Below, one piece after another: positions 23,643 through 40,160 of a DNA stretch of 64,000 nucleotides. Position 1 is the first letter of the stretch, and each line of letters begins with the position of its first letter. Position numbers and translations under genes: made by a program. The notes under the pieces are model-generated. The model had not been told where the DNA came from and did not search any database. It saw only the letters and a list, made by a program, of their open reading frames with translations. Source of the stretch: Pseudomonas nicosulfuronedens. GTDB taxonomy: Bacteria; Pseudomonadota; Gammaproteobacteria; Pseudomonadales; Pseudomonadaceae. The stretch spans positions 62,001 to 126,000 of the forward strand of contig NZ_SWDV01000005.1 of NCBI RefSeq assembly GCF_005877905.1, given 5' to 3'.

Positions 23643-26600
23643 ATGCAGGCCAAATATCGCTCGAAGCTCTTCCAGCCCGTCGGCCACGCTCTGGCGCTGG
23701 AGCAACGCATTCTGTTCGACGGAGCTGCTGCAGCGGCCGTCGATCAACAGCATCACGACAGCAGCGCCGACGCCAAGGACACGGCCAAACCGGCCACGGC
23801 AGTCGAAGCGCGCGCCCAGGCGGCGGCTCCCGCGCAGGCGGCCCCGCGCAACCTGGTGGTCATCGATGCGCGCCTGGAAAATCGCGACCAGCTGGCCGCC
23901 AACCTGCCGGTGGGTACCACCGCACTGGTCGTGGATGCCGGCCAGGATGCCATCGCGGCGATCAGCAACGCCCTGGCGCAACTGGGCAAGGTCGATTCCA
24001 TCCAGATCTTCTCCCACGGCGCCACCGGCCAATTCACCCTCGGCAACCAGACCTTCACCAGCCAGAGCGTCGACCAACTGGGCGAGCGCCTGAGCGCCTG
24101 GCGTGGCGAACTCAACGCCGGGGCGGACATCCAGCTGTACGGCTGTGATGTGGGTGCGGGCAGTGCCGGCCAGGCACTGGTCAATGAGCTGGCGCGCTGG
24201 ACCGGCGCCGATGTCGGTGCCTCGAGCAACGCCACCGGCTCGAGCCGTGCCGGCGGTGACTGGAACCTCGAAGTACGCTCGGGTGATGTCGACAAGACCA
24301 TCGCCCTGAGCGCGACCACCCTGGTGGACTTCCAGGGCCTGCTGGCAGACGCCAGCCCCACCGTCGCCATGGGCAGCGGCGGCGCCGCCGTGCGCCTGGG
24401 CGACACCTTCACTTTCGATGTGATCTTCAGTAACCCTTCGACCCAGGTTGGCTACGCCCCCTACATCGACCTGTTCATGCCGGTCACCGGCCGCGACGGC
24501 AACGATGGGGCCACTTTCGTCTCTGCCACCTACCTGGGGCAGGCGGTGAAAAGCACCGTCCTGACCTTCGACGCCAGCGGCAATGCCACCCACCCATTCG
24601 CCAAGGACGCCAACGGCAATGCGCTGGTGATCAATGCCGCTAGCGTCGGCATGAAGCCGGGCGATCAGATGATCGTGCTGCAACTGCCCTATGGCAGCGT
24701 CACCAACGGCCAGCCGGGCATCGACATCCAGATCACCGCGCAATTGAGCAACCTGGCCGATACCACCTACTCCGACGGTGCGCCCAACCTCACCATCAAT
24801 GCCCGCGGCGGCTTCGAGTACGGCAACGACTCGTTGAACAACCCGACCCAGGACCCCTCGCTGGTGGAGTCCACGTTGCACAGTTTCGTGGTCACCCCGA
24901 CCCTGTTGTCGGTCACCCAGACGGTCAACATGCCCGAGGGCGAGACCGTCACCGGGCCGAACTTCACCCGCACCCAGACGGTGACCGTGACCCCGGCCAC
25001 CGGCCAGACCCTGACCAACGTCAGCGTCACCCAGACCGTGCCCGACCAGGTCCACGTCAGCCAGATCACCCCCGGTGCCGGTGGCACCCTGGAATCGATC
25101 ACCCTGCATGACGGCACCGTGCTGACCGATCCGACGCAGATCGCCGACGCGCTGGCCAACCCCAATGCGTTCGTCTCCAGCTACACCATCCATTACGACA
25201 CCCTGAGCAGCGCCAGCACCACCCAGGTCAGCTTCTACGTGCCGGAGATCGACGCCAACGGCCGGCCGGTGATCGACCCGGCCACCGGTAACCCGGTCAC
25301 CATCAACTTCGGCACCGCCACCGTCAACGGCGACTGGAACCCGCTGGATACCCGCGACCGTCCCACCGATCCGGACGGCTACCCCTTCACCGAGACCGGC
25401 AACGGCCAGGGCGTCACCTTCGTCGCCAAGTCCATCACCCTGCTCAAGCAGGTGACCATCCAGAACGACATCGGCAGCGCCGGCCTGACGCCCGGCGATA
25501 CCCTGCGCTACAACATGGAGGTGGCCATCTCCGACTTCTTCGCCTTCGGCAAGAACATCCTCGGCCAGGGCACCTTCACCATCACCGACCAGCTTGGCGA
25601 CGGTCAGACCTTCAGTGCCCTCAACCCGCCGACCATCGTCATCCAGCAGCACGGCGGCAGCCAGGTCATCCCGCTGATCTATACCGCCACGCAGAACGCC
25701 GACGGCAGCACCACCCTGGTCTTCGATATCGCCGCGTCGATTGCCGCCGCTGTCCAGGGACCGGGGGTCTATGCCCTGTACGGCGACCTGTGGGACGACG
25801 ATCCGCAGGAAGGCGCTACGACCCTGACCATCGTCTACGACGCCATCGTCGACCTCACCTACACCTCCGACCACCCACCCCACGACCAGCTCAACGAGGG
25901 CGACAGCGTCGGCAACAACGCCACCGTCGACGCCACCGTGCTGCGCGACTCGGTGAACCTCGGCGGCGAACAGACCGACGGCTCCAGCACCACCAGTACC
26001 ATCCAGACCTCGTCCGTCGACATCGAGCTGACCCAGGTGAACGGCGGCAACCCACCGGCCAATGGCGAGCTGCGCCCCGGCGACGTGGTGACCTTCACTA
26101 TCACCTACGACCTGCTAGTAGCGGACTACGAGAACTTCACCCTCACCGCCTACCTGCCGCTGCCGCTGCTGGATGCCACCGGCATCAACTGGTCGCAGGG
26201 CACCGGCGTCGGACAGTGGCTGATTACCGCCGGCAACACCATTGCCGACGTGCCCGACAGCGTCACCACCGGCCCAGGCAACTCGATCATCTTCAACTTC
26301 GGCAATTTCGTCTCCGGCGGCCTGAACGGTGGCCGGGTGCAGGTGCAGTTCACCATGCGCGTGGGCGACCAGCCCTTCGCCGACCAGCGCGAGCTGGATG
26401 TGCTGGCCCAATCGAGCCAGACCACCACTGTCGACAAGACTGTGCTGACCTCCTCTGACGTGGCGGTCATCGAGTCGGTCGCAGAACCCGTGCTGGACAT
26501 CAAGCACGGCGTGGTTTCCAGCACCAACGGCACGGTCACCGGCACCACCGGCACCTGGAGCCCGCCGGGCTCCACGGGCGTGCCCTTCAGCGGCAGCGTC

Positions 26601-29600
26601 ACCAGCCTGGCGGCGGTGGACGGCAATGTCAGCGGCATCGACGGCGCCGACACCCTGCGCCTGGCCACCGCGATCAAGAACAGCGGTGGCGGCGGCGCCT
26701 ACGACGTGGTCACCAGCATCACTCTGCCCGCCGGCCTGGCCTTCGCCAATGGCAGCCTGGCAGCGGCCAACCTGCAGATCTTCCGGGGCGATGGCAGCCA
26801 GCTGATCGCCGGAGTGGACTACAGCGTCAACGGCAATACTATCACCTTCCTTGACGCCAACTTCCAGCCCACGCTGCTGGCCGGGCGCGCCGGCACGGTG
26901 AATGACGCCACCGGCGCCAACGTAGTGGTGATCACCTACGACGTCACCGTCGACAATGCCATCCTCGCTTCGCGCACCCTGCAATCGAGTGCTTCGCTGA
27001 CCAACTACGCCAGCGTCGAGGGCGGCCAGGACTTCACCCCGACTGATATCACCGAGGTGGCCAACCAGCAGGTAGCCGCGCCGACCATCGTCAAGAACTA
27101 CAAGGACGGCAGCCTCAGCGCCGACGACTCCAGCGCCGGCCACACCACCGGCAGCAACCTGGTGATCGGCGAAAGCATGACCTACGACATCGTCGTAACC
27201 CTGCCCGAAGGCACCACCGGCAACCTGCGTATCAACGACCTCATACCACCGGGACTGCGCCTGGATCTCAACTTCAATGGCGGCCTGGGCTACCAGCTCA
27301 TCTTCACCAGTACCGGCAGCGGTGCCTTGGCCCAGGACTTCAACGGCAACGTGAATGTCTCAAGCTTCGTGGTCGACTCCGGCGATGGCGGTGACGTCCA
27401 CCTGGTGTTCAACGCCTCGGGGGTCAGCGCCGACAACCTCACCGGCAACAACAGCTTCGTCATCCGCCTGGTACTGATTGCCAACAACGTCATCGGCAAC
27501 CAGCAAGGCGTGGTCCTGAACAACGGCGCGCAACTGGTCTACAGCGACCCCGACGGCGACACACCCAACGGTGCCACCGCGATCGACCGCACCCTGACCA
27601 GCGGCCAGCAGCCGAGCGTGACCATCGTCGAGCCGACGCTGTCGGTCACCCAGGCCCTGACCACCACCCCGGCGTTCGGCGGCTTCGGCGAGAACGCGCC
27701 GATCTCCTGGGACATCACCATCAGCAACACCGGCGGCATCGATGCCTTCGACCTGAGCTTCCTCGATACCCTGCCGGTCCAGATCAGCAACTACACCATC
27801 ACCAACATCAGCGGCGCCGCCGCAGGCAGCTTCGCCATCGTCAATGGCGTCCTGCAGATCGTCGGCAAGGTGGACCTGTCTGCAGGCGGCAACATCGTCA
27901 TCAGCCTGTCCGGGGTGGTCAACAGCCAGGTCGGTACCGTACCGGTCATGCGCAACATAGCCGCCGTGCAGTGGACCAGCCTGGACGGCCCCGATAGCGG
28001 CGAGCGCACTGGCGTCGACGGCATCCTCCACAGCGGCGTGCTCAACGACTACGACATCGACCACACGCTGCTGATCCCGGTCTCCAACCAGATCCTCGTT
28101 TCCCGCGTCGGCGGCATGCCGGATACCCCGCCGGCCACCAATGCCAGCGGCGCGGTCGATACCTCGGCCCCCGTCGAGACGGTCGCGGTTGGCGAGGTGA
28201 TCCGTTACCGCGTAGCCGTGCAGATTGCCTCCAGCGGCACCGGCAACCTCAACTACCAGATCGTCATCGACCTGGCGCCCGGCCTGGAATTTCTTGCCGC
28301 CGACCTCAACGAAGTGCTCATCGCCTTCATTTCCTCCACGCAAGGCGGCCTCAACAGCAGCAACCCGTTGCTGGACGCGAACACAGTGGCCGGCCTGTGG
28401 ATCCAGGGCAACCAGCTCAGTGGCGTGGCCCAGCCGATCGACCCCAATGTGCCGGTCGACCCGTCCAACCCCGGCGCCTGGCCCGGCCCGACCGTGGTAC
28501 TGAACTCCTCCCTGTACTCCATCGCCCAGACCGGAGGCATCAACAATGGCCAGCGGATCACCATCAGCCTGGGCAACCTCACCAACACGGAGCAATTGCC
28601 GGGCGACGACGACATCGAAGGTGTGGTCATCGACTTCAACGTGCGGGTGCGCAATACCGTCGGCAACCAGGCCGGCACCCAACTGGGCATGCAGGTCAGC
28701 GAGTACGTCGACGGCAACACCGAACCGCGTGGTCAGAGCGGCGTTCTTTACGAAACCGTGGTCGAACCCGGCTTCACCGATCCGACCAAGTCGGTGATCG
28801 ATCTGACCCTGAATGCCGGAAACACCACCGACGCGACCCTGGAAGTGAGCTTCCAGCAGAACGGCAACGTGCCGGCCTACGATGTCCATCTGCAGGACAA
28901 GCTGCCAGGCGGCAGCAACTACCAGTTCGTCAGCGTCACCATTACCGATGCCGGCGGCACCAGCGTCATTTACACGCTCGCCGACTTCCTACCCGGCGGC
29001 AATGCAACCCTGGCCGGGTTGACCCTTACCATCGATCCGGACCCGGCCAACGGCATCGGCCTGGACATCGCCAAGCTCGACGTCGGTGACAAGGTCAGCT
29101 TCCGCTACAGCGTCACCGTGCCCGACAACCCCATCGCCAACAACGCCGCCAGCTCCGCGGTGCTGACCTGGACCAGCCTGCCGCAGAGCTTCACCAGCTG
29201 GGGCGGCTCGGCGGTCGGCGCGGCCGGCAGTGCCAGCGGCGAACGCACCGGGCAGGACGGGCCCGGCCCGGATAACAGTGTGTTGAACAACTACGTGAAG
29301 AGCGTCGGCATCGCCTTCGGCGTGGTACGAGGAACCCTCTGGGACGACACCGCCTCGGCAACCAGCAGCACCACACCCGATGGGGTCGGCCTGGCGAACC
29401 AGACCGTTACCCTGACCTGGGCTGGCGCCGATGGTCTGTTCGGCACCGGCGACGACGCTCAACTGGCGACCACCACCACCGACGCCAACGGCCAATACGT
29501 CTTCAGCATCCTGCCCAGCGGCCTGTACCGGGTCGACGTTGCGGCGCAGGTCAGCAATCCGGTGGCCGGTGACCCCAGCAACACCCTCAACGTACGCATC

Positions 29601-32600
29601 GACACCGACGGTGCTGGCAACACCTTCAACCGGGTCGAGCTGACCCTGGACGGCGGTACCGCCACCGACGGCCCGACCGGCCAGGCGAACTTCGGCTACG
29701 TGCACCTCAACGAGGCACCGATCAACACCATCTCCGACCAGCACGGCCAGGAAGACACCGTGCTGCACATCGGCGGTCTGGCGATCAGCGACGTGGACGC
29801 CGGCAACGGCGAGCTCACCGTCACCCTCTCGGTGCTGCACGGCGTGCTCTGGACCAGTGCCACCACCCCGGCGCCCGACGCGACCCCGCCCGCCGGCGCC
29901 AGCAACACCCTGGTGCTGCGCGGCACCCTCGCGCAGATCAACGTGCTGCTCGGCCAGCTCTATTACAAGGGCAATCAGGACTTCAACACCTTCCGCGACG
30001 CCGAGACGCTGACCATGGTCACCAATGACCAGGGCAACTTCGGCGACCACCCCACGACCGGGGACGGAACACCCGGGCAGAACCCGGCCGACGCCCTGAG
30101 CGATACCGACCAGATGAACATCATCATCGACCCGGTCAATGACGCGCCCGTGGCCCATCCGGACGTTGCCATCGCTGTCGAGGCCGGCGGCAGCCTCAAC
30201 GCCGACCCCGGGGTCAACCCCACCGGCAACGTGCTGGATAATGACACCGACGTCGACATCGCCACCAATAACGATGTGCTGCGCGTGACCCGCCTGGAGA
30301 ATGCCGCCGGCGCCGGCGTCAACGTCCCGAACGATGGCACCGTCGTCAGCCTCGCCGGCCGCTACGGCACGCTGTACATCACCGCCAATGGCGGCTACCA
30401 GTACGTGGTCGACAACAACAACGCCGCCGTCCAGGCCCTGCGCACCGGCACCGACATGCTGCGCGACTCCTTCGGCTACTACATCGCCGACCTCGGCAAT
30501 CTCGCCAGTTCGGCTGCCTTCACCGTCGATATCCACGGCGCCAACGACACCCCGATCGGCGTTCCCGACTTCGGCACCGCCATCGAGGCCGGCGGCACCA
30601 ACAACGGCACGCCAGGCCAGGATGCGACCGGCAACGTGCTCACCGGTGTCCCTGTCACCGGCGCTGGCGCCGACACCGACGTCGACTCGGTAGCACTGGG
30701 CGAGACCAAGTCGGTCACCCTGGCACGCTACGACGGGCCCGGTGGCGGCCGCATCTTCCCGGTCGCCACCGGAGCACCCGCCGTCCTGCAAACGGCGTTC
30801 GGCACCCTGACCATCAACGCCGACGGCTCCTACCGCTATGTGATCGATAACAGCAACGCGGCGGTACAGGCCCTCTCGCCGAACGAAACGATCACCGAGA
30901 ACTTCACCTACCAGGTCACCGACAAGGGCGGCCTGAGCGCGCTGACCACCCTGACCATCACCATCCAGGGTGCCAACGATGCCCCGGTGGCGGCAGACGA
31001 CCACAACACCGCCACCGCCGGTGCCAGTGACAACAGCCCACCAGCGACCAGTGCCACCGGCAACGTCATCACGGGCACCCCTGGCACCGGCGTGGATACC
31101 GATGTCGACAACGCCGACAAGCCCAACGCCGACAAGCTCCGGGTCGACGGCGTGCGTTCGGGCCTGGAAACCGCTGGCGGCAGCCTCACCACCGTCGCCG
31201 GCATCACCGGCATTACCGGCACGGTTGCACGGCTGGCCAACGGCACGCTCATCAGCGGCGACTTCGGCCGGCTCGTCATCGGCGTGGATGGCGCCTACCT
31301 CTTCGTGGTCAACAGTTCCGACCCGGCCATCCGCGCCCTGGCCGCCAACCAGAGCCTGGACGTGATCTTCACCTACCGCATCCACGACAGCGGCGGCCTG
31401 ACCGACCAGGCGCAGTTGGTGATTACCGTGACCGGGGTGAACGACCCGCCGCAGGTCAACGCGGTCAACGTCGACGCCATTGAGGCCGGTGGGCTCATCA
31501 ACGGCACTCCGGGACTGGACCCCAGCGGCAGCATCCGCTCGTCCTACAGCGATCCGGACGGCGATACCCTCACCATCACCGGCATCGCCACCGCCGGCGG
31601 TACCGCCGGCACCGTCGGGCAAAGCCTGACGGGCCTCTATGGCAGCCTGGTGCTGGATGCCCAGGGCAACTACCGCTACGTGGTGAACAACAACAACCCG
31701 CTGGTGGAGGCCCTGCGTACCAACCAGCAAACCCTCAGCGATGTCTTCCAGTACAGCGTCAGCGACGGCAATGGCAAGACCGTGACGGCCAGCTTCACCG
31801 TGGTGATCCATGGCCGCGATGACACGCCGATCGCCAATGACGACACCCGCACCGCCATCGAGGCCGGGGGCACCAACAATGGTACCCCCGGCGCTCCGGC
31901 CAGCGGCAATGTGCTGGACAACGATACCGACGTGGACAGTGTCCCCAACGGCGAAACCAAAGTGGTCGACGCCCTCCGCACCGGCACCAAGGCTGCCGGC
32001 GGAACCCTGATCGACCTCACTGCCAGCGGCGGCGTCATCGCCGGCAGCTACGGCACCCTGACCCTCAACGCCAACGGCACCTATACCTACGTGGTGAACG
32101 ACAGTCTCGCCGCCGTGCAGGCGCTCAAGCTCGGCGACAGCCTGGTGGAATCCTTCACCTACCGCATGCACGACACCGACGGCGCCAGCTCCATCGCCCA
32201 GCTGACCATCACCATCGAAGGCCGCTATGACGCCCCGGTGGCCAACGACGACATCAACTACGCCGTGGCCAACCTCGACGGCAGTGGCGGTCGCAACCCC
32301 ACCGGCAACGTGATCACCGGCCTGACCGGGATCTTCGACGGTATCGGCAAAGACACCGATGTCGATGCCGGCGACCATATGGTCGTCACCACCATCGCCA
32401 AAGGCCCGGAAGGTGCCCAGGTGAACACCGTGCCTGTCGTGCCCGGCAGCCCGCAGACCATCCAGGGCGCCTTCGGTACCCTGGTGATCAACGCCGACGG
32501 CAGCTACCAGTACTTCGTCGACAGCACCAACCCGACCATCATCGCCCTCGGCCCGCTGGCCTTCGCCATCGAATCGTTCACCTACCAGGTGACCGACGAC

Positions 32601-34289
32601 GGCAACCTCGACGACCACGCGACCCTGATCATCCTCATCCGGGGCCGCAACGAACCGCCGGTCACCGAACCGGACTTCGGCACCGCCGTGGAGGACGGTG
32701 GCCTGCACAACAACGTGCCGGGCAGCAATCCATCGGGCAATGTGCTGGCCAACGACACCGACCCGGACACCATCACCACGATCCCGCAGGACGTGATGCA
32801 CGTGGTCTCCTTCTGGGCTGGCGACAGCCCGACGTCGACCAGCGTCACCGCTCCCGGCCAGACGCTGCGCGGCCAGTACGGCACGCTGACGCTCAACCAG
32901 GACGGCAGCTGGAGCTACGCCCTGGACAACACCCTGCCGGAAGTCGAAGCCCTGCGTGCCAGCGGGCAGACCCTGCAGGACAAGTTCACCTACCTGGGCG
33001 CGGACATCTGGGGTGGCGCCACGCCCGGCCTGCTGACCATCACCATCGACGGCCGTAACGACACGCCGATTGCCAGCGATGACGTTGCCACCGCCGTGGA
33101 AGCGGGTGGCGTCAACAACGGCACCCCGGGCGTCGACCCGCGCGGCAACGTGCTGGACAACGACACCGATGTCGACGGCGTGCAGTACGGCGAGACCAAG
33201 ACGGTCGTCTACTACACCAACCAGAACGGCACATCGGCCAACGCCGGCAACGTGCTGCAAGGCCTCTACGGCAAGCTGCTGATCAACGCCGATGGCAGCT
33301 TCGAGTACCTGGTGGACAACGCCAATCCCACCGTGCAGGCGCTGCGCACCGCCGGGCAAACGCTGACGGAAGTCTTCGGCTATCGCATGCGCGATACCGC
33401 CGGAGCAACCTCCGATGCACGCCTGACCGTGACCATCCAGGGCGCCGACGACAACCCGGTCGCCCGCGACGACAGCAACTTCGCCAGCGACGAGACCCCG
33501 GCGCCACAAGCCACGGGCAACGTACTGCCTAACGACAGCGACGTGGACGGCGGTGATTCCATCAGCGTGACCGGCATCCGCACCGGGCAGGAAAACGGCA
33601 GCGGCACCGCCGGGGTCGTCGGCCAGCCCATCGCCGGGCGCTACGGAACCCTCGTGCTCAACGCAGACGGCAGCTACACCTACACCATCGACCAGAGCAA
33701 CCGCGAAGTACTGGCCGCCGCCGGGCTGGGGCAGATCCTCAAGGACTACTTCACCTACACCATCAGCGACCTGGTTGGCCTCACCGACCAGGCGCAATTG
33801 ACCATCACCCTGGATATCGCCACTCCGTACATCCCGCCGGGACCACACTTCGACCGCTTCGGCGACGATGGTTATCCGCGCGACCGGATACCCGACGTCG
33901 ACCCGGCGATCTTCGTACAGCCGGTGGTCGAGCGCGTCGACGAGCGACTGTCCCTCTCCGGCTGGGGCGCCGACGGCAGCAATGTCGAGTTCTTCGCCAC
34001 CCCGGAGATCGATAGCCCGTCGCTGGGCGATCAATTGGGACAGGTGAAGGGCCAGTTCGTCGCCCGCGCCGTGGCCGAAAGTCGACGCGCCAGCGACCTG
34101 GACAAGAACTGGGTGGACGGCCGCCACGGCGTGATCAGCCTCTCCGCCGACGGCCTGCTGCCCGACCCATCACTTTGGGCACCCTTCCCCGCCGACATGG
34201 TCGGCCAGCCGGACAAGGCCGCGCAGACCGCACCGGGCTTCCGCGCCCAGCTGCGCGAAGCAGCCCAGCGTCGGAGCGGCGGCCAATGA
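23643..34289 (+). CDS. Giant LEPR-XLL/DUF4347/VCBS-repeat surface protein (putative adhesin), 3548 residues
   Basis: Residues 17-29 (LALEQRILFDGAA) match the LEPR-XLL-type N-terminal motif of giant secreted proteins. No Sec signal peptide is visible. Residues about 69-235 are a DUF4347 domain with SHG (His125) and LYGCD (Cys168). Residues about 240-1890 are repeated DUF11-like beta modules. About 1892-2020 is an SdrD/CnaB-like module (GTLWDD...DANGQYVFSILPSGLYRVDV), followed by a cadherin-like segment. Residues 2166-3393 form nine VCBS-type repeats. The C-terminal 155 residues are polar, with no RTX nonapeptides. The protein is probably displayed on the surface for attachment or biofilm formation. 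Its stop overlaps the next in-frame ATG, and four exporter-like genes follow. Function is inferred; the domain reading is direct. Confidence 0.85.
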   Translation: MQAKYRSKLFQPVGHALALEQRILFDGAAAAAVDQQHHDSSADAKDTAKPATAVEARAQAAAPAQAAPRNLVVIDARLENRDQLAANLPVGTTALVVDAGQDAIAAISNALAQLGKVDSIQIFSHGATGQFTLGNQTFTSQSVDQLGERLSAWRGELNAGADIQLYGCDVGAGSAGQALVNELARWTGADVGASSNATGSSRAGGDWNLEVRSGDVDKTIALSATTLVDFQGLLADASPTVAMGSGGAAVRLGDTFTFDVIFSNPSTQVGYAPYIDLFMPVTGRDGNDGATFVSATYLGQAVKSTVLTFDASGNATHPFAKDANGNALVINAASVGMKPGDQMIVLQLPYGSVTNGQPGIDIQITAQLSNLADTTYSDGAPNLTINARGGFEYGNDSLNNPTQDPSLVESTLHSFVVTPTLLSVTQTVNMPEGETVTGPNFTRTQTVTVTPATGQTLTNVSVTQTVPDQVHVSQITPGAGGTLESITLHDGTVLTDPTQIADALANPNAFVSSYTIHYDTLSSASTTQVSFYVPEIDANGRPVIDPATGNPVTINFGTATVNGDWNPLDTRDRPTDPDGYPFTETGNGQGVTFVAKSITLLKQVTIQNDIGSAGLTPGDTLRYNMEVAISDFFAFGKNILGQGTFTITDQLGDGQTFSALNPPTIVIQQHGGSQVIPLIYTATQNADGSTTLVFDIAASIAAAVQGPGVYALYGDLWDDDPQEGATTLTIVYDAIVDLTYTSDHPPHDQLNEGDSVGNNATVDATVLRDSVNLGGEQTDGSSTTSTIQTSSVDIELTQVNGGNPPANGELRPGDVVTFTITYDLLVADYENFTLTAYLPLPLLDATGINWSQGTGVGQWLITAGNTIADVPDSVTTGPGNSIIFNFGNFVSGGLNGGRVQVQFTMRVGDQPFADQRELDVLAQSSQTTTVDKTVLTSSDVAVIESVAEPVLDIKHGVVSSTNGTVTGTTGTWSPPGSTGVPFSGSVTSLAAVDGNVSGIDGADTLRLATAIKNSGGGGAYDVVTSITLPAGLAFANGSLAAANLQIFRGDGSQLIAGVDYSVNGNTITFLDANFQPTLLAGRAGTVNDATGANVVVITYDVTVDNAILASRTLQSSASLTNYASVEGGQDFTPTDITEVANQQVAAPTIVKNYKDGSLSADDSSAGHTTGSNLVIGESMTYDIVVTLPEGTTGNLRINDLIPPGLRLDLNFNGGLGYQLIFTSTGSGALAQDFNGNVNVSSFVVDSGDGGDVHLVFNASGVSADNLTGNNSFVIRLVLIANNVIGNQQGVVLNNGAQLVYSDPDGDTPNGATAIDRTLTSGQQPSVTIVEPTLSVTQALTTTPAFGGFGENAPISWDITISNTGGIDAFDLSFLDTLPVQISNYTITNISGAAAGSFAIVNGVLQIVGKVDLSAGGNIVISLSGVVNSQVGTVPVMRNIAAVQWTSLDGPDSGERTGVDGILHSGVLNDYDIDHTLLIPVSNQILVSRVGGMPDTPPATNASGAVDTSAPVETVAVGEVIRYRVAVQIASSGTGNLNYQIVIDLAPGLEFLAADLNEVLIAFISSTQGGLNSSNPLLDANTVAGLWIQGNQLSGVAQPIDPNVPVDPSNPGAWPGPTVVLNSSLYSIAQTGGINNGQRITISLGNLTNTEQLPGDDDIEGVVIDFNVRVRNTVGNQAGTQLGMQVSEYVDGNTEPRGQSGVLYETVVEPGFTDPTKSVIDLTLNAGNTTDATLEVSFQQNGNVPAYDVHLQDKLPGGSNYQFVSVTITDAGGTSVIYTLADFLPGGNATLAGLTLTIDPDPANGIGLDIAKLDVGDKVSFRYSVTVPDNPIANNAASSAVLTWTSLPQSFTSWGGSAVGAAGSASGERTGQDGPGPDNSVLNNYVKSVGIAFGVVRGTLWDDTASATSSTTPDGVGLANQTVTLTWAGADGLFGTGDDAQLATTTTDANGQYVFSILPSGLYRVDVAAQVSNPVAGDPSNTLNVRIDTDGAGNTFNRVELTLDGGTATDGPTGQANFGYVHLNEAPINTISDQHGQEDTVLHIGGLAISDVDAGNGELTVTLSVLHGVLWTSATTPAPDATPPAGASNTLVLRGTLAQINVLLGQLYYKGNQDFNTFRDAETLTMVTNDQGNFGDHPTTGDGTPGQNPADALSDTDQMNIIIDPVNDAPVAHPDVAIAVEAGGSLNADPGVNPTGNVLDNDTDVDIATNNDVLRVTRLENAAGAGVNVPNDGTVVSLAGRYGTLYITANGGYQYVVDNNNAAVQALRTGTDMLRDSFGYYIADLGNLASSAAFTVDIHGANDTPIGVPDFGTAIEAGGTNNGTPGQDATGNVLTGVPVTGAGADTDVDSVALGETKSVTLARYDGPGGGRIFPVATGAPAVLQTAFGTLTINADGSYRYVIDNSNAAVQALSPNETITENFTYQVTDKGGLSALTTLTITIQGANDAPVAADDHNTATAGASDNSPPATSATGNVITGTPGTGVDTDVDNADKPNADKLRVDGVRSGLETAGGSLTTVAGITGITGTVARLANGTLISGDFGRLVIGVDGAYLFVVNSSDPAIRALAANQSLDVIFTYRIHDSGGLTDQAQLVITVTGVNDPPQVNAVNVDAIEAGGLINGTPGLDPSGSIRSSYSDPDGDTLTITGIATAGGTAGTVGQSLTGLYGSLVLDAQGNYRYVVNNNNPLVEALRTNQQTLSDVFQYSVSDGNGKTVTASFTVVIHGRDDTPIANDDTRTAIEAGGTNNGTPGAPASGNVLDNDTDVDSVPNGETKVVDALRTGTKAAGGTLIDLTASGGVIAGSYGTLTLNANGTYTYVVNDSLAAVQALKLGDSLVESFTYRMHDTDGASSIAQLTITIEGRYDAPVANDDINYAVANLDGSGGRNPTGNVITGLTGIFDGIGKDTDVDAGDHMVVTTIAKGPEGAQVNTVPVVPGSPQTIQGAFGTLVINADGSYQYFVDSTNPTIIALGPLAFAIESFTYQVTDDGNLDDHATLIILIRGRNEPPVTEPDFGTAVEDGGLHNNVPGSNPSGNVLANDTDPDTITTIPQDVMHVVSFWAGDSPTSTSVTAPGQTLRGQYGTLTLNQDGSWSYALDNTLPEVEALRASGQTLQDKFTYLGADIWGGATPGLLTITIDGRNDTPIASDDVATAVEAGGVNNGTPGVDPRGNVLDNDTDVDGVQYGETKTVVYYTNQNGTSANAGNVLQGLYGKLLINADGSFEYLVDNANPTVQALRTAGQTLTEVFGYRMRDTAGATSDARLTVTIQGADDNPVARDDSNFASDETPAPQATGNVLPNDSDVDGGDSISVTGIRTGQENGSGTAGVVGQPIAGRYGTLVLNADGSYTYTIDQSNREVLAAAGLGQILKDYFTYTISDLVGLTDQAQLTITLDIATPYIPPGPHFDRFGDDGYPRDRIPDVDPAIFVQPVVERVDERLSLSGWGADGSNVEFFATPEIDSPSLGDQLGQVKGQFVARAVAESRRASDLDKNWVDGRHGVISLSADGLLPDPSLWAPFPADMVGQPDKAAQTAPGFRAQLREAAQRRSGGQ
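30138..33821 (+). repeat. Array of nine VCBS-type repeats inside the giant protein
   Basis: Units of 120-155 codons start at 30138, 30543, 30975, 31440, 31818, 32226, 32649, 33057 and 33447, all in frame. Each begins with NDxP or a variant (NDTPIASDD, NEPPVTEPD, DDNPVARDD), then usually EAGG..NGTPG and GNVLDNDTDVD, then YGTLxxNADGSYxYxVDN and a closing FTYxxxD...LTITIxG. Units are related but not identical, so they are long-diverged rather than recently duplicated. Confidence 0.85.
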
Positions 34290-34327
34290 GGAAAAAGCGA
34301 TTAATTCGAATCGATCAAGGACAGAAC

Positions 34328-35905
34328 ATGCCCGCCTACGCACTGAAATGCCTGAGCGCAACCATCACCGTGAGCATTCTCCTCAGCGCCTGCTCGGCCT
34401 TCGAGCCCAAGCCTTACACCGAGGAGGAGATGCGCCAGCGGGTGATCGAAGACCAGGCGCGGATGTACAAGGAGCAGGAGCCGGTCAACGGGCCGATCAC
34501 CTTCTACGAAGCCTCGGCACGTGCGTTGAAGTACAACCTCGACTACCGCCTCAAGTTGCTGGAAAGCGCGCTGGCCTCCGACCTGCGTGACGTCACCAGC
34601 CACGAGATGCTGCCGCGTGTGGTCGCCTCCGCCGGCTACGCCGGGCGCAACAACGACTCGGGCGGTACCTCCATCGGTATCGAGGATCGTCAGGTCAGCT
34701 TGCGGCCGTCCACCTCGGAAGAACGCTACCGCCAGCTCTACAGCCTCGGGCTGTCCTGGAGCCTGCTGGACTTCGGCGTCGCCTATTACCGCACGCAGCA
34801 GAAGAACGACCAGATGCTGATGGCCGAGGAGCGCCGCGAGAAGGTCGCGCAGAACGTCCTGCAGGACGTTCGCAACGCCTACTGGCGCGCGCTGGGCGCC
34901 CAGCGCCTGTTGCCGGAAGTGGACGGCCTGCTGATGCGCACCCACCGCGCCCTGACCTCCGCCCGCGAGGCCGAAGGCAAGGGCCTGCTGCCGCGCCAGG
35001 ACATCCTCGCCTACCAGCGCGCCCTGCTCGACTCGGTGTACATGCTCACCGTACGCCGCCAGGACCTGGAGTTCGCCCGCGCCGAGCTGGCCGCGCTGAT
35101 GTCGTTGCCGCCGAACACCAAGATGGTCCTGGCCGACATCGGCGAGCAACCGCTGCCGCTGGTCACCAACAATATCGACCAACTCGAGCGCCTGTCGCTG
35201 GAACGCCGCCCGGAAATCATGGAGGAGTGGTATCGCAAGCGCGTCGACATGAACGACCTGAAGATCGCCAAGGCCCAGCTGTGGCCCAACGTGAGCTTCA
35301 ACTACGGCTACGAGTACGACTCCAACAAGTACCTGTACAACAACGACTGGAACCAGACCGGCATCAACGTCTCGATGAACCTGCTGCGCCTGGCCCAGTA
35401 CCCGGACATCAAGGCCGCCGAAGCCAGCCAGGAAAAGACCGACGACATGCGCCGCACCGCGCTGTCCATGGCCATCCTCACCCAGGTCCGCGTCGGCCTG
35501 CTGCGCTACCAGCTGGCCAGGCAGGAAGTGGAGTTCGCCGACGAGAGCCTGCGCGTCGACCAGAGCCTGCTCAGCTACGCCCAGTCCGCCCGTGGCGCCG
35601 CCCTGGGCAGCGAACTGGAGCTGATCCGCGCCGAAGGCCGCTACCTGCTCTCGCGTTACCAGCGCGAAGCCGCCTACTCCGACGCCCAGGCCGCCTGGGG
35701 CCGGTTGTACAACTCGGTGGGCTTCGAGGTGATGCCCAAGGAAATCGAGAACCACGACGTGAAGACCCTCGCACGGGAAATCCAGCGCACGCTGGAGCAA
35801 CAGACCAGCACCAACCTGCTCGCCAGCAGCGGCCCGACGACCGCTAAACCGACCGCCGGGCAAGCATCCGCAGGGCAGAAGGAAATCGCCAATGCCGCGC
35901 AGTAA
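34328..35905 (+). CDS. TolC-family outer-membrane factor lipoprotein
   Basis: The 525-residue protein begins with a lipoprotein signal (ILLSAC lipobox, Cys22 of the mature junction). It has the two long helical hairpins and short beta segments of TolC-type channels (for example YSLGLSWSLLDFGVAYYR and PNVSFNYGYEYDSN). It should form the outer-membrane and periplasmic tunnel for the giant protein. The ATG at 34328 has AGGA seven bases upstream. An in-frame ATG at 34286 overlapping the adhesin stop is possible. Its last 14 bases overlap the next gene. Confidence 0.83.
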   Translation: MPAYALKCLSATITVSILLSACSAFEPKPYTEEEMRQRVIEDQARMYKEQEPVNGPITFYEASARALKYNLDYRLKLLESALASDLRDVTSHEMLPRVVASAGYAGRNNDSGGTSIGIEDRQVSLRPSTSEERYRQLYSLGLSWSLLDFGVAYYRTQQKNDQMLMAEERREKVAQNVLQDVRNAYWRALGAQRLLPEVDGLLMRTHRALTSAREAEGKGLLPRQDILAYQRALLDSVYMLTVRRQDLEFARAELAALMSLPPNTKMVLADIGEQPLPLVTNNIDQLERLSLERRPEIMEEWYRKRVDMNDLKIAKAQLWPNVSFNYGYEYDSNKYLYNNDWNQTGINVSMNLLRLAQYPDIKAAEASQEKTDDMRRTALSMAILTQVRVGLLRYQLARQEVEFADESLRVDQSLLSYAQSARGAALGSELELIRAEGRYLLSRYQREAAYSDAQAAWGRLYNSVGFEVMPKEIENHDVKTLAREIQRTLEQQTSTNLLASSGPTTAKPTAGQASAGQKEIANAAQ

Positions 35906-36668
35906 GTCGTACCTGCTCCTCCCTCTGTACCTGATGTTGCTCCAGCCGGCGCTGGCCGACGACAGCACCGGCGCCCTGCCGCCGTTACCTGACAACCAGG
36001 ACCCCGGCGCCATTCGCGTGCTGCTGGTATCCAACCTGGAAACCACCCTCTCCGCCCAGATGAACGGCACCCTCGGCGCGTTCAAGGCAAGCCTCGGCGA
36101 CAAGGTCGCCAAGGACGCCGAACTGGCCCAGCTCAACTGCGTGGAAGTCAACGCCCGCGCCAAGGTCGCCGCCGCCGAACTGAACATGGCCCGCTCCAAC
36201 CTTGCCGCCAAACAGAACCTGCGCAAGCTCGATGCCGTGGGAGACCTCGAAGTCGCCATGGCCAATACCGAGGTACAGAAGGCCGACGGCGCACTCACCC
36301 TGGCCCGCGCCCAGGCCGGCTACTGCCTGGTCGACGCGCCCTTCTCCGGTCGCATCGCCAAGGTCTACGTCAAGCCGTACCAGACGGTGACGGCCGGCAC
36401 TCCGCTGTTCGACCTGGTCAGCGACGGCGCCCTCAAGGTGCGCCTCAACGTGCCCTCTTCCATGCTGCCCAGCCTGCGCCCGGACATGCCACTAGAGGTG
36501 GACATCCACGAAACCGGCAAGCAATACCCCGCCAAGGTCAGCGTGATCAACGCGCGGGTTGACGCCGTGGCGCAGACCGTGGAGCTGGAGGCAAAGCTGG
36601 ACGCCAGCTATCCCGAACTGATCGCCGGCATGAGCGGGGTCGCACGCTTCCCCGAAAGCCATGAGTGA
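35892..36668 (+). CDS. Periplasmic HlyD/RND-type adaptor
   Basis: The 258-residue protein has a cleavable signal peptide (ends PALA-DD). A barrel-sandwich hybrid domain is split by a short helical hairpin (GTLGAFKASLGDKVAKDAELAQL before it, VDAPFSGRIAKVYVKPYQTV after it), followed by a beta-barrel segment. It has no membrane anchor and is shorter than usual RND adaptors. It overlaps the TolC-like gene by 14 bases and the GAF-HlyD gene by eight, so all are translationally linked. It probably joins the outer-membrane channel to the inner-membrane adaptors encoded downstream. Confidence 0.83.
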   Translation: MPRSKSYLLLPLYLMLLQPALADDSTGALPPLPDNQDPGAIRVLLVSNLETTLSAQMNGTLGAFKASLGDKVAKDAELAQLNCVEVNARAKVAAAELNMARSNLAAKQNLRKLDAVGDLEVAMANTEVQKADGALTLARAQAGYCLVDAPFSGRIAKVYVKPYQTVTAGTPLFDLVSDGALKVRLNVPSSMLPSLRPDMPLEVDIHETGKQYPAKVSVINARVDAVAQTVELEAKLDASYPELIAGMSGVARFPESHE

Positions 36669-38001
36669 GCTGCTGCCGCCACCCCAGCTGCTGCTGAGCC
36701 TGGCCAATGTGCGCGACAAGGCGCTGACGGCCGACTCCCTCGGCGGCCTCGCCTTCAGCATCGCCAACGACCTGTTCCCGCTGCTGCGCTTCCACCAGGC
36801 GCTGGTGTTCGCCTGCCATGAATCGCGCAACGAGCTGCTGGCGGTGTCGGGACTGGCCAAGCCGACGGAGGACTCGCCCTATCTGGTCTGGCTGGAGCGC
36901 GCGAGTCGCTGGGTAGCCGGGCAGATACCCGACGCTACGCCCACCTGGCTGGCCCGCGATGCCATCGAACCGCCTGCCGACATCGCCGAGGGCTGGAGCG
37001 AATGGTGGCCCGCCGGGCTCTGGTGCGTACCGCTGCACGATCGCGCGGGCAAGCGCCTGGGGCTGGTGCTGTTCCTCCTCGACGAACCGCCGGCGCGCAA
37101 TCTGCAACCGCTGCTGCAGGGCATCTGGCAGACCTGGGCGCACGCCTGGGCAGCGTTCGGGCCACGTACCCGCCTGCGCTTCTGGCGACCGAGCAGGCGC
37201 CAGGTGCTGATCGGTGTGATCGCGCTGGCCGCGCTACTGCTGATCCCGGTGCGGCAGACCGCCCTGGCGCCGGCGGAAGTCGTCTCGCGCAACGCCCAGG
37301 TGATCAGCTCGCCGATCGACGGGGTGATCGTCAAGATGCTGGTGCGTCCCAACCAGAGCGTGGAAGTCGGCACGCCGCTCTTCGAACTGGACGAGACCAC
37401 TCTGCGCAGCCGCGCCGACGTGCTGGCCAAGGAAGTCGCCGTGGCCGACGCCGAGCTCATGGCGGCCAGCCAGCGCGCCTTCGACAACCCACAGAGCAAG
37501 AGTGAGTTGACGGTGCTCGACGGCCGTGCCCGTCAGCGCCGCGCCGAACTGGCCGCCGTGCAGGCGCAACTGGCGCGCACCCGCGTGCTTGCGCCGCGCG
37601 CCGGCGTTGCCGTGTACAGCGACCCCAACGACTGGCTGGGCAAGCCGGTGGTGACCGGCGAACGCATCCTGCAGATCGCCGACCCGAAGGCACCGGGCAT
37701 GCGCATCCAGCTGCCGGTGGCCGATGCCATCGCGCTGGAGCCGGGGGCGAAAGTGGCGCTGTTCCTCACCGCCTACCCACTGGACCCGCTGCATGGGGAA
37801 ATCCTCGACACCAGCTACCAGGCCAAGCCCAGCGACGAAGGCGTGGCCTCCTACCGCCTGCTGGCCAGCGTCGAGAACGCGCCGCCCCACGCGCGCCTGG
37901 GCCTGCATGGCACCGCCAAGCTCTACGGTGAGCGCGTCGTGCTCGGCTACTACCTGCTGCGCCGCCCGCTGGCATCCCTGCGCGCCTGGACTGGCTGGTA
38001 A
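36661..38001 (+). CDS. GAF-like domain / transmembrane / HlyD fusion
   Basis: The 446-residue protein has an N-terminal GAF-like region (about 20-165, with LRFHQALVFACHESRNELLAV and WCVPLHDRAGKRLGLVLFLLDE), one membrane span (about 182-198), and a periplasmic HlyD barrel-sandwich with a coiled coil (SSPIDGVIVKMLVRPNQSVEVG ... VLAPRAGVAVY). A cytosolic GAF domain on an export adaptor suggests that ligand or signal input controls export, which is inference. The gene starts eight bases before the previous stop and ends five bases before the M50 gene, inside the giant-protein operon. Confidence 0.8.
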   Translation: MSELLPPPQLLLSLANVRDKALTADSLGGLAFSIANDLFPLLRFHQALVFACHESRNELLAVSGLAKPTEDSPYLVWLERASRWVAGQIPDATPTWLARDAIEPPADIAEGWSEWWPAGLWCVPLHDRAGKRLGLVLFLLDEPPARNLQPLLQGIWQTWAHAWAAFGPRTRLRFWRPSRRQVLIGVIALAALLLIPVRQTALAPAEVVSRNAQVISSPIDGVIVKMLVRPNQSVEVGTPLFELDETTLRSRADVLAKEVAVADAELMAASQRAFDNPQSKSELTVLDGRARQRRAELAAVQAQLARTRVLAPRAGVAVYSDPNDWLGKPVVTGERILQIADPKAPGMRIQLPVADAIALEPGAKVALFLTAYPLDPLHGEILDTSYQAKPSDEGVASYRLLASVENAPPHARLGLHGTAKLYGERVVLGYYLLRRPLASLRAWTGW

Positions 38002-38006
38002 CGGCG

Positions 38007-40106
38007 ATGGACATTGCCGCCGAAGACCTGCCCACCCCGCCACTGCGGGACGACCTGCGCCTGGACGAAGCTGCCCCTGGCCCGGACGGCGAGCCGGTCT
38101 GGGTGATCCACGACAGCGTGCTCAATCGCTTCTACCGCATCGGCTGGCTGGAGTTCGAATGCCTGCTGCGCTGGGAGCAGACGCCCCGGCAGATCAGCGA
38201 GCAGATCGCCGAGCAGACTGCCCTCAAGCCCGAGGCCGAGCAGGTGCTGGGCTTTCGCCAGTTCCTCGAACAGCACCAGCTGCTGCGCCCTGGCCCCGAG
38301 GCGCTGGCACGGCTGGCCGCCCGTAGTGAAGGCAAGCAGTGGACGACCTGGAACTGGTGGCTGCACCACTACCTGTTCTTCCGCATTCCGCTGCTCCGCC
38401 CGCAGCGTTTCCTGCGCGCCATCGCCGGCAGCCTCGACTGGCTGTTCAATCGCTACGTGGCCATGCTGGTGCTGCTACTGAGCCTGGCCGGCATCGTCCT
38501 GGTAACCCACCAATGGGACACCTTCACCCATGACGTCGTGGAATCCTTCTCTCTCGAAGGTCTGCTGAGCTTCGCCGCCGCGCTGGTGGTGGCCAAGACA
38601 TTCCACGAGCTGGGCCACGCGCTGGTGGCCACGCGGCTGGGGCTGAAGGTCGCGCACATGGGCATCGCCTTCGTGGTGATGTGGCCGATGCTCTACACCG
38701 ACACCGGCGAGAGCTGGAAGCTGCGCAGCAACCGCCAGCGACTGGCCATCGCCAGCGCCGGGATCATCACCGAACTGGGCCTGGCCGGGCTGTCGACGCT
38801 GGGCTGGGCGCTGGCCGATCCCGGCCCGTTCCGCAACGGGCTGCTGTACCTGGCGACGACCAGTTGGGCGTTGTCGCTGGCCTTGAATGCCAGCCCTTTC
38901 ATGCGCTTCGACGGCTACTTCATCTTCTCCGACCTGCTGGACTTCCCCAACCTGCACGAGCGCGCCGGCGCCCTCGCGCGGACCACGCTGAGGCGCAACC
39001 TGCTGGGGCTGGAGGAGCCCTGGCCAGAGCACTTCCCCACCAGCAAGCGCCGGGCGCTGGTGGCCTTCGCCTTCGGCACCTGGGTCTACCGCCTGCTGCT
39101 GTTCCTCGGCATCGCCGTGGCGGTCTACTACTTCTTCTTCAAACTGCTGGGAATCTTTCTGTTCGCCGTGGAAATCAGCTGGTTCATCGTTCAGCCCGTG
39201 TGGCGTGAACTCAAGGTCTGGTGGCAGCGCCGCGCGGAAGTGAAGCCGCGGCGCAAGCTGGTGTTCTTCGCGGCACTGGTCGCCGTGCTCCTGCTGCTCG
39301 CCATCCCCTGGCGCACCCAGGTGCACGCCATGGGCGTGGCTCGCGCGGCGCAGCAGCTGCACGTCTACGCGCCCTTCCCCGCGCTGCTGCGCGACCTGCG
39401 CCCGGGCGGCGAAGTCGGCAAGGGTGAAACCCTGGCCGTGATGGAAGAACCCGATATCGCCGCCAAGGTCGCCGGCAGCGAGGCGAGCATCCGCGGCTAC
39501 CAGGGACGGCTGGCCGGCATGCTCGCCGACCCGTCCGGGCTCTCCGAGGAGGCCGTCACCCGCCAGCGGCTGGGCGTGGAGTACCAGCAGGCTCGCGCCG
39601 CCCGCAACGAGATGGCGAGGCTGAACCTGCAGGCACCCTTCGCCGGCCGCTGGATGGACGTCAATCCGGACTGGAAGCCCGGCCAGTGGATCAACACCCG
39701 CGAGCCCATCGGCGTACTGGTGGACCCGCAGCACTGGCTGGTGGATGCCTACGTCAAGCAGGACGAAGTGCAACGCCTCACCGATGGCGGCCATGTGCGC
39801 TTCTACCCCGAAGGTGTGCCGCGCCCCATCGAGGGCCAAGTGGTGCTGATCGGCACCACGCGCATCAGCCAGCTGGAGCAACCGATGCTCGCCTCGCGCT
39901 ACGGCGGCCCGCTGAACGTCAATCCTCAGGGCGAAGCGCTGGTGCCCAATCCGGCGCTGTTCCATGTGCTGGTGAAGCTCGACGCAGCGCCGCCGGGCTT
40001 GCACGAGACCCGTGGCCACCTGCAGATCGAGGGCGCCCGGCGCAGCTGGCTGGGCGAAGGTTTTACCCGCCTGCTGGCTGTCGCCCTGCGCGAGAGCGGC
40101 TTCTAG
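38007..40106 (+). CDS. PqqD-like / M50 metallopeptidase-like membrane domain / HlyD fusion
   Basis: The 699-residue protein has a soluble N-terminal PqqD-like region (about 29-93, VIHDSVLNRFYRIG...EFECLLRW...ISEQIAEQ...FLEQHQLL). It then has a multi-span membrane domain with the M50 zinc motif H200-E-L-G-H204 and the distal ligand motif D302 (PFMRFDGYFIFSD). After a last span near 417-433 comes a HlyD/biotinyl-lipoyl-like periplasmic domain (about 440-690). The intact zinc motifs suggest an active intramembrane protease. It ends the giant-protein operon, which lacks an ABC ATPase, so this may be its inner-membrane export or processing component. The substrate link is inference. Confidence 0.82.
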   Translation: MDIAAEDLPTPPLRDDLRLDEAAPGPDGEPVWVIHDSVLNRFYRIGWLEFECLLRWEQTPRQISEQIAEQTALKPEAEQVLGFRQFLEQHQLLRPGPEALARLAARSEGKQWTTWNWWLHHYLFFRIPLLRPQRFLRAIAGSLDWLFNRYVAMLVLLLSLAGIVLVTHQWDTFTHDVVESFSLEGLLSFAAALVVAKTFHELGHALVATRLGLKVAHMGIAFVVMWPMLYTDTGESWKLRSNRQRLAIASAGIITELGLAGLSTLGWALADPGPFRNGLLYLATTSWALSLALNASPFMRFDGYFIFSDLLDFPNLHERAGALARTTLRRNLLGLEEPWPEHFPTSKRRALVAFAFGTWVYRLLLFLGIAVAVYYFFFKLLGIFLFAVEISWFIVQPVWRELKVWWQRRAEVKPRRKLVFFAALVAVLLLLAIPWRTQVHAMGVARAAQQLHVYAPFPALLRDLRPGGEVGKGETLAVMEEPDIAAKVAGSEASIRGYQGRLAGMLADPSGLSEEAVTRQRLGVEYQQARAARNEMARLNLQAPFAGRWMDVNPDWKPGQWINTREPIGVLVDPQHWLVDAYVKQDEVQRLTDGGHVRFYPEGVPRPIEGQVVLIGTTRISQLEQPMLASRYGGPLNVNPQGEALVPNPALFHVLVKLDAAPPGLHETRGHLQIEGARRSWLGEGFTRLLAVALRESGF

Positions 40107-40117
40107 CGCCGCTATAA

Positions 40118-40151
40118 GCCGGCCCTGCCGCGATCCGCAGGCAGGGCTGGC
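40118..40151. terminator. Bidirectional hairpin terminator
   Basis: GCCGGCCCTGCC, a 10-base loop, then GGCAGGGCTGGC forms a 12-base stem with one mismatch, between the converging M50 and panB genes. No long T-run follows, so termination strength is uncertain. Confidence 0.6.
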
Positions 40152-40160
40152 GCGTCGGCC

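Follow-up and report, generated by a model that had tools for sequence, protein, structure and literature searches.

The TolC-coupled exporters known so far are powered by a pump in the inner membrane, which is an ATP-binding cassette (ABC), resistance-nodulation-division (RND) or major facilitator superfamily (MFS) protein (PMC8277102). Type I systems for giant adhesins (LapA/LapBCE class) are among those closest to a five-gene set found in Pseudomonas nicosulfuronedens, on a 64,000-nucleotide stretch that is here called the window (contig NZ_SWDV01000005.1, positions 62,001 to 126,000 of the forward strand; C5:62001-126000 of the host genome, G000). The set encodes a giant protein, a TolC-like outer-membrane factor (OMF), a soluble HlyD adaptor, a GAF-HlyD fusion and a fusion of a RiPP recognition element (RRE)-like domain, a site-2 protease and an HlyD adaptor (M50-HlyD); RiPPs are ribosomally synthesised and post-translationally modified peptides. 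With the LapA class it shares the TolC-like channel, the HlyD-type adaptors and a repetitive, Cys-poor giant without a Sec signal, but it has neither an ABC in the operon nor one that is regularly present at other loci, has three adaptors instead of one, adds M50 and RRE modules, and carries an N-terminal LEPR tag on its cargo in place of a LapA-type N-terminus. It likewise differs from MacAB-TolC and EmrAB-TolC, in that no MacB or EmrB partner is present and the inner-membrane part is a site-2 protease. The HlyD-type adaptor and TolC-type channel of type I secretion are thus both found, whereas the ABC, its defining criterion, is not, which places the set outside type I secretion proper. The five genes very probably constitute one export system for LEPR-tagged giants, and sequence and structure models suggest that it is, as a whole, probably a dedicated export or surface-display system working by the mechanism proposed below.

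Both LapA-type and LEPR-tagged giant systems occur in G000. At C4:29432-49977 (L015, L016, L185), a LapA-like giant of 5108 aa, without Cys and without the tag, lies beside OMF, ABC and HlyD genes and serves as an internal control for classical type I secretion; its likeness to LapA was judged by eye, and its N-terminus is unlike that of the window giant.

The locus proposed in the preliminary description is real. Open reading frame (ORF) calls place all five genes on the + strand, in the order giant, OMF, HlyD, GAF-HlyD, M50-HlyD, and agree with the reported overlaps of 14 and 8 bases and the 5-base gap between genes. Pfam and NCBIfam recognise DUF4347, VCBS/Cadherin_4 repeats, OEP, HlyD_3 and Peptidase_M50 in the set. 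Its features in window coordinates are as follows.

23643..34289, + strand: giant cargo protein of 3548 aa, with LEPR-like N-terminus, DUF4347, repeats, C-terminal motif and a single Cys
23694..23744, + strand: LEPR-XLL-like N-terminal tag, residues 18-34, core LALEQRILFDGAA (NF012209, 14.1 bits, cut-off 17)
23853..24344, + strand: DUF4347 domain, residues 71-234, with predicted caspase-like fold and His125/Cys168 (Pfam 164 bits; AlphaFold2 (AF2) pLDDT 93.9; fold matches)
34239..34286, + strand: C-terminal tail motif of the giant, FRAQLREAAQRRSGGQ, a possible second signal (motif counts in tails)
34286..35905, + strand: TolC-like OMF with a probable lipobox LLSACS, by eye (Pfam OEP, 132 bits; alternative start 34328)
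35892..36668, + strand: HlyD/RND-type periplasmic adaptor, probably with a Sec signal peptide as judged by eye (Pfam/NCBIfam)
36661..38001, + strand: GAF-HlyD, with GAF-like cytoplasmic domain, one transmembrane (TM) helix (about 182-200) and HlyD adaptor (GAF match weak, in the paralogue only)
38007..40106, + strand: M50-HlyD, a fusion of RRE (PqqD-like), site-2 protease and HlyD (Pfam/NCBIfam, fold matches)
38031..38303, + strand: RRE-like domain of M50-HlyD, residues 9-99
38550..39128, + strand: site-2-protease core of M50-HlyD, residues 182-374 (HExxH at 38604-38618; third ligand Asp302 at 38910-38912)
39243..40076, + strand: MacA/MexA/EmrA-like adaptor part of M50-HlyD, residues about 413-690
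40118..40151, + strand: hairpin 3' of the operon, without a T-run (RNA fold and terminator scan)

As had been stated, no ABC is encoded in the set, none of its proteins matching an ABC family of Pfam or NCBIfam. Judged from sequence, this absence holds broadly. It was followed through 120 loci, namely 80 named GTDB loci (the best 80 of 359 relatives), 20 near and 20 distant ones, in which the operon span was taken as M50-HlyD plus every recognised partner gene joined to it on the same strand through gaps below 400 bases, a span that can come out short where the giant is unrecognised. All ABC counts in these loci come from a hidden Markov model (HMM) built from LssB-type ABCs, which replaced a PROSITE-like motif that had missed the LssB ABC of G000 itself. 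None of the 120 loci has an ABC inside the operon span; two have one on the same strand no more than 1 kb away (L075, 276 aa; L150, 578 aa), and 25 have one anywhere in the examined stretch.

The gene set is widespread in beta- and gammaproteobacteria and beyond, and not a local oddity. In the seven nearest named loci M50-HlyD is 92-97% identical to the window copy; G000 resembles Pseudomonas nitroreducens, an environmental strain of which, TX1 (L052), carries the set. GAF-HlyD or a GAF-HlyD-like protein is encoded in 77/80 named, 17/20 near and 17/20 distant loci, and the named loci contain HlyD in 67 and an OMF in 53 of the 80 cases. Giants with DUF4347 were detected in 34-36 of the 80 named loci, which is a lower bound because most of the closest loci have their giant truncated by the 10-kb flank. 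The genes are arranged in at least three orders: giant-OMF-HlyD-GAF-M50 as in the window, OMF-HlyD-giant-GAF-M50 (L076, L084, L086, L088) and HlyD-GAF-M50-other genes-giant-OMF. The preliminary description had proposed looking for co-occurrence of the DUF4347/LEPR-XLL gene with its partners, and the giant gene does recur with them across the sampled genomes and loci. Among 370 genomes of the class, M50-HlyD (counted at E <= 1e-20) was found in 58, DUF4347 in 50 and both in 41 (Fisher p 5e-32), while LEPR-XLL over the cut-off in a frame of at least 400 aa was found in 46, of which 41 have M50-HlyD (p 4e-35); these genomes are related by descent, so that the p values overstate the association. 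The 400-aa frame filter was our own choice and removes short-frame hits, 53 genomes being over the cut-off before it was applied. LEPR or DUF4347 is present in 47 of the 58 M50-HlyD genomes, and five genomes (G066, G080, G147, G189, G264) have a counted LEPR match but no M50-HlyD.

The cargo was characterised from the window giant and its relatives. Its repeats are isopeptide/DUF11-like first and then of the VCBS/Cadherin_4 type (Pfam/NCBIfam), and Pfam finds neither RTX repeats nor a C-terminal beta-barrel. The reported lack of a Sec signal is borne out by hydropathy, by which the first 80 residues contain no Sec-like hydrophobic stretch (maximum KD19 0.89) and no TM-like segment rises above threshold anywhere in the protein. 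The LEPR-XLL label holds in part: the window giant is a near miss to NF012209 (14.1 or 16.2 bits, cut-off 17), whereas the giant of a paralogous set in the same genome passes at 18.3. The NF012209 library entry names only the domain, an N-terminal tag of very large proteins which is shared, over the cut-off, by the paralogue and many giants of M50-HlyD genomes; its link to an export machine is new here. In three genomes without a DUF4347 match (G049, G091, G212), LEPR-XLL matches lie in open frames of 10,000-14,000 codons, and some of these very large predicted proteins may use the export set.

DUF4347 of the window giant scores 164.3 bits against a gathering score of 24.6 (PF14252) and belongs to that family. 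The AF2 model and its fold matches give it the caspase-like fold and His-Cys dyad of clan CD cysteine peptidases, and in the alignment the Cys is invariant (43/43) and the His is conserved in more than 90%. The fold and the conserved His/Cys are shared with these peptidases and with the type VI secretion effector Tce1 (PA0256, DUF4347), termed a putative cysteine protease in PMC13323088, but in the window DUF4347 forms one module of a giant protein, close to its N-terminus. Residue 168 within it (window:24144-24146) is the sole Cys of all 3548 residues. Exactly one Cys occurs in the DUF4347 domain of 46/46 linked giants, and 39/46 have no further Cys within the sequence covered.

An LExR tag precedes DUF4347 in 45/46 M50-linked giants but in only 1/8 DUF4347 proteins from genomes without M50-HlyD, against a background of 51 in 2,891 N-terminal ORF windows overall, giants included in the pool. 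The eight proteins were drawn from nine genomes with DUF4347 only, the weak domain of G269 (L184) falling below the filter. Pfam, run on five proteins of such genomes, shows DUF4214 in L176, an autotransporter beta-domain in L178, RTX and DUF4214 in L183 (in the ORF that follows the DUF4347 ORF and a masked stretch) and no export domain in L180 and L184; by eye, the N-termini of L184, L179 and L182 resemble those of Sec-exported proteins. From these contexts DUF4347 is best described as a travelling surface module. Two of the eight unlinked proteins contain or precede DUF4214, one of them with RTX repeats, and one has an autotransporter beta-domain, so that it is the N-terminal tag, as far as these comparisons reach, and not DUF4347 that tracks the machine and marks its cargo. 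As a defining cargo mark DUF4347 was rejected on account of these contexts and Sec-like N-termini, and also of DUF4347-free tagged giants within the same set (L076, L084, L086). A single tagged DUF4347 giant (LEKRIVFDA; G216 C76, L181) was found in a genome without M50-HlyD at E <= 1e-20, which reflects either a missing contig or an exception.

A further motif lies at the C-terminus. It occurs in 39/55 tails of giant-like ORFs of the window and near group and in 1.1% of internal windows, and may be an export signal in the window and near group. Among copies found later, the tail of Cupriavidus metallidurans CH34 (ASFTDQIRQLASR) matches the pattern by eye and that of E. coli (SLAAQVDALARN) matches loosely.

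The structure model divides M50-HlyD into three parts: an RRE for leader recognition, a site-2 protease resembling RseP and an adaptor resembling MacA. The predicted structure of the first part has the fold of the leader-peptide-binding PqqD-like RREs and is assigned to them. The second has the HExxH motif and the Asp third ligand in a TM core of RseP fold that characterise site-2 proteases (M50). HExxH is kept in 120/120 loci, and H200, E201, H204 and D302 are invariant in an alignment of 61 sequences. A simple third-ligand pattern missed 7 of the 120 loci and was abandoned, as N294 and D302 are invariant in the same alignment, which includes three of the seven (L134, L154, L157). The HExxH motif, the N...DG active site and the TM core are shared with RseP and MJ0392, but in M50-HlyD the protease is part of one polypeptide with an RRE-like domain and an export adaptor, and it is encoded with a giant cargo. 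No Walker-A-like motif was found by motif scan in any of the five window proteins. The preliminary description suggested that M50-HlyD replaces the ABC pump or that an external energy source is used; since the protease site is invariant and the fold is of RRE type, recognition and processing fit M50-HlyD better than pumping. That description therefore stands as regards an ABC-less export set for tagged giants, which recurs without an ABC in 120 operon spans and with five genes in E. coli records, and is not supported as regards the pump role of M50.

The order RRE-then-M50 is also that of RiPP systems, and the best NCBIfam match of M50-HlyD (P0005) is the daptide HExxH protease (NF041824; residues 31-392, 160.7 bits). 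A RiPP-like modification system, in which a peptide is the substrate of RRE and M50 while the giant is an independent adhesin encoded alongside, would agree with this match and with possible tailoring genes in some loci, and a small precursor would lie among ORFs below 80 aa, the partner search having covered larger ones. This alternative is nevertheless highly improbable. The match stays below its cut-off of 300, M50-HlyD has an HlyD adaptor, the recurrent partner found is a tagged protein of some 3,500 residues in the window and not a peptide, and the same partners return despite differing gene orders.

We infer from folds and conservation four roles for the export set, namely tag receptor, signal peptidase, mixed adaptor ring and TolC channel. 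In the cytoplasm, the RRE of M50-HlyD would bind the still unfolded giant by its N-terminal tag, much as leader peptides are bound by the RREs of RiPP systems; recognition of the tag by the RRE is somewhat favoured. The site-2-protease core would cleave within or next to the run of small residues that follows the tag (FDGAAAAAV) and so act as the signal peptidase of the system. The adaptor domains of M50-HlyD and GAF-HlyD, together with the soluble HlyD, would form one mixed adaptor ring, which would seal onto the TolC-like lipoprotein to give a continuous conduit. Inner-membrane crossing would be driven by a housekeeping source, for which the proton-motive force and a general translocase are the likeliest candidates, and helped by folding of the repeat domains outside, where DUF4347, if present, may act as a caspase/legumain-type cysteine peptidase or transpeptidase in self-processing or anchoring. 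That the energy comes from a housekeeping source instead of a dedicated ABC is a tentative proposal and the weakest link in this scheme. What sequence shows is the gene content, the co-occurrence, the ABC-free operon, the conserved protease site and the domain folds. A SecA-like motor adjoining the set was considered and dropped, the sole SecA match of G000 lying on another contig.

MacA, which serves a periplasm-to-outside pump, is the best structural match of the adaptor part of M50-HlyD, and the M50 part is a site-2 protease with a complete active site. Both agree with another scheme, in which a general route such as Sec brings the giant to the periplasm and the part of the HlyD/M50/TolC set is limited to finishing outer-membrane passage or anchoring, M50 being a quality-control or release protease like RseP in stress signalling. 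This is unlikely, if still deserving some weight, as the N-terminus of the giant has no Sec-like hydrophobic segment, no TM-like segment exceeds the threshold elsewhere in it, and the presence of an RRE-like domain suggests that the peptide recognised is a cytoplasmic one.

Unlinked ABCs bear on the energy source of the proposed export system. Among the 58 M50-HlyD genomes, 40 were searched with curated LssB, HlyB and PrtD models, 21-26 candidates being scored per genome, and all counts from this search hold among the matches listed. Type I ABCs over the cut-off were found in 14/40 genomes (LssB 7, HlyB 4, PrtD 3), and 26/40 have none. A loose rule set by hand (a full-length match or at least 430 bits) adds six genomes and brings the total with a type I ABC to 20/40; counting also the HlyB matches of 396-417 bits in G208, G102 and G096 leaves 17/40 without. 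A dedicated and co-conserved ABC elsewhere, named beforehand as the finding that would speak against the ABC-free reading, was not found in this sample of 40 of the 58 genomes. Genomes without a type I ABC include G145, which belongs to the window's own family and has a linked tagged giant. In G280, whose draft assembly of 1.6 Mb is 95% complete and contains the tag, DUF4347 and M50-HlyD, the LssB and HlyB searches each give a single ABC-exporter match, in a 615-aa frame (E <= 1e-50). MacB as a hidden partner was rejected: MacB-like matches at E <= 1e-80 occur in 5/40 genomes, including one of 640 bits in G000, and none of the 40 passes the strict cut-off of 966 bits.

Several observations weigh against the dedicated, ABC-free export system. 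G000 has four LssB-type ABCs over the cut-off, at other loci; some ABC exporter matches LssB at E <= 1e-50 in 40/40 genomes; and the ABC searches took in 40 of the 58 M50-HlyD genomes. An OMF lies within the contiguous span in only 38/80 named, 8/20 near and 0/20 distant loci, and because it falls outside in so many, the channel may often be unlinked. DUF4347 is missing from 17/58 M50-HlyD genomes, of which 11 also have no counted LEPR match (many of them fragmented drafts). Cys-poverty is unspecific, as the LapA-like giant of G000 has no Cys at all and unlinked DUF4347 proteins often have the domain Cys alone. The C-terminal motif, whose pattern was written after viewing the tails, is nearly missing from the distant group (1/10) and was rejected on that count as a universal signal. 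The ABCs among these points would fit a partial or degenerate type I system that borrows an unlinked ABC (LapB/LssB, HlyB, PrtD) or a MacB- or MsbA-type ABC, as would the three HlyD-family proteins and the TolC-like protein of the set, the 640-bit MacB-like match and an LssB-like ABC about 2.5-6.5 kb upstream of the set in three named loci (L099, L108, L124). Such borrowing is improbable in general, considering the genomes without a type I ABC, the single match per search in G280, the MacB counts, a cargo without RTX repeats and without the N-terminus of the LapA-like giant, and the four E. coli records described below, in which the set has no ABC. Within the sample it holds up for individual hosts, though not as the rule; a shared ABC is possible in the Pseudomonas host of the window because G000 has four of LssB type. 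The readings weighed here overlap, and their probabilities do not sum to one.

The export set is a variant of TolC-adaptor export with a real chance of being its own class. In the boldest form, which is more doubtful than the system itself and no better than tentative, it would be a new Gram-negative secretion class: a TolC-adaptor conduit free of a nucleoside-triphosphate-driven pump, with a ring of RRE-site-2-protease-adaptor and GAF-adaptor subunits, which moves LEPR-XLL-tagged giants by proton-motive force and outside folding, with the site-2 protease as signal peptidase and DUF4347 as a cysteine peptidase or ligase built into the cargo for its maturation or anchoring. The set is apparently undescribed. 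No description of it was found in the literature covered, preprints and most subscription journals being outside its scope, nor in the available parts of PMC6722718, PMC8939145, PMC4446572, PMC8262886, PMC12322963 and PMC13323088, and the whole words M50, LEPR and GAF do not occur in the first 300,000 characters of PMC8277102. If giants are exported without a dedicated pump, this would be a new way to energise secretion, or else would involve a shared pump so far unconnected to the set. The orphan LEPR-XLL domain would gain a machine; for DUF4347 the single invariant Cys would indicate a likely chemistry, and site-2 proteases might serve as signal peptidases. The question can be tested directly with the copies in E. 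coli, where the set takes a movable form, and with the two paralogous sets of this Pseudomonas.

Among plasmid records, 57 match M50-HlyD. Of 5,426 complete E. coli genomes, 24 carry the four partner genes with an identity of 99% or higher, 22 of them with at least 80% of the query, and their places are plasmid-borne in 21 cases and chromosomal in 4. Four records (0H23, H5, KMi029, CAVP776) have giant, TolC, adaptor, adaptor and M50-HlyD in the order of the window, and no ABC was found with the five-gene set in these four. Transposase genes or remnants flank the set on both sides in 0H23, H5 and KMi029 and downstream in CAVP776, the record of which starts just before the giant. The giant of 0H23 has 4459 aa, the tag ALESRQLFDGAAL, DUF4347 and a single Cys. 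Cupriavidus metallidurans CH34 also carries the set.

L191:14830-34581: intact five-gene set on an E. coli plasmid, beside insertion sequences (further copies L192, L193, L194)

The paralogous set of the host genome lies about 90 kb downstream on the same contig (G000 C5:about 177500-194000; L014, L013), with the order HlyD, GAF-HlyD, M50-HlyD, hydroxylase-like, sulfotransferase-like, DUF6916, tail-collar, giant, OMF. This order differs from that of the window, while the partners are the same; identity to the window copies is 41% for GAF-HlyD and 36% for M50-HlyD. Its giant has 2407 aa, starts ALEPRMLFDGA and contains DUF4347. The genes between M50-HlyD and the giant are Asp/Asn-beta-hydroxylase-like, sulfotransferase-like (below the Pfam cut-off), DUF6916 and phage-tail-collar genes; genes for a GNAT acetyltransferase, a PMT-type mannosyltransferase and sulfotransferases are found in related loci. 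Tailoring of the giant by such extra genes is possible.

Some details of the window locus differ from the preliminary description. A terminator at 40118 had been proposed; a strong hairpin is present (fold of 40107-40165, dG -37.6, z -4.0), but it has no T-run and no match in the terminator scan. The GAF domain of GAF-HlyD is unrecognised by Pfam in the window copy, and the paralogue has a weak PF01590 match (18.8 bits, cut-off 22.4). Hydropathy gives a single TM helix in GAF-HlyD and several in M50-HlyD. The probable start of the OMF is ATG 34286, which shares ATGA with the stop of the giant, or else 34328; TTG 34175 was discarded as a merely mechanical ORF start. A scan of the + strand gave no Pfam match at 21.7-23.4 kb of the window. 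Two long + strand ORFs (window:62-5626, 1854 aa; window:7196-9799, 867 aa), likewise without a Pfam match, may be spurious or of no known family. The nearest recognised flanking genes, a short-chain dehydrogenase/reductase (SDR) before the set and an AraC regulator and methionine synthase after it, look unrelated.

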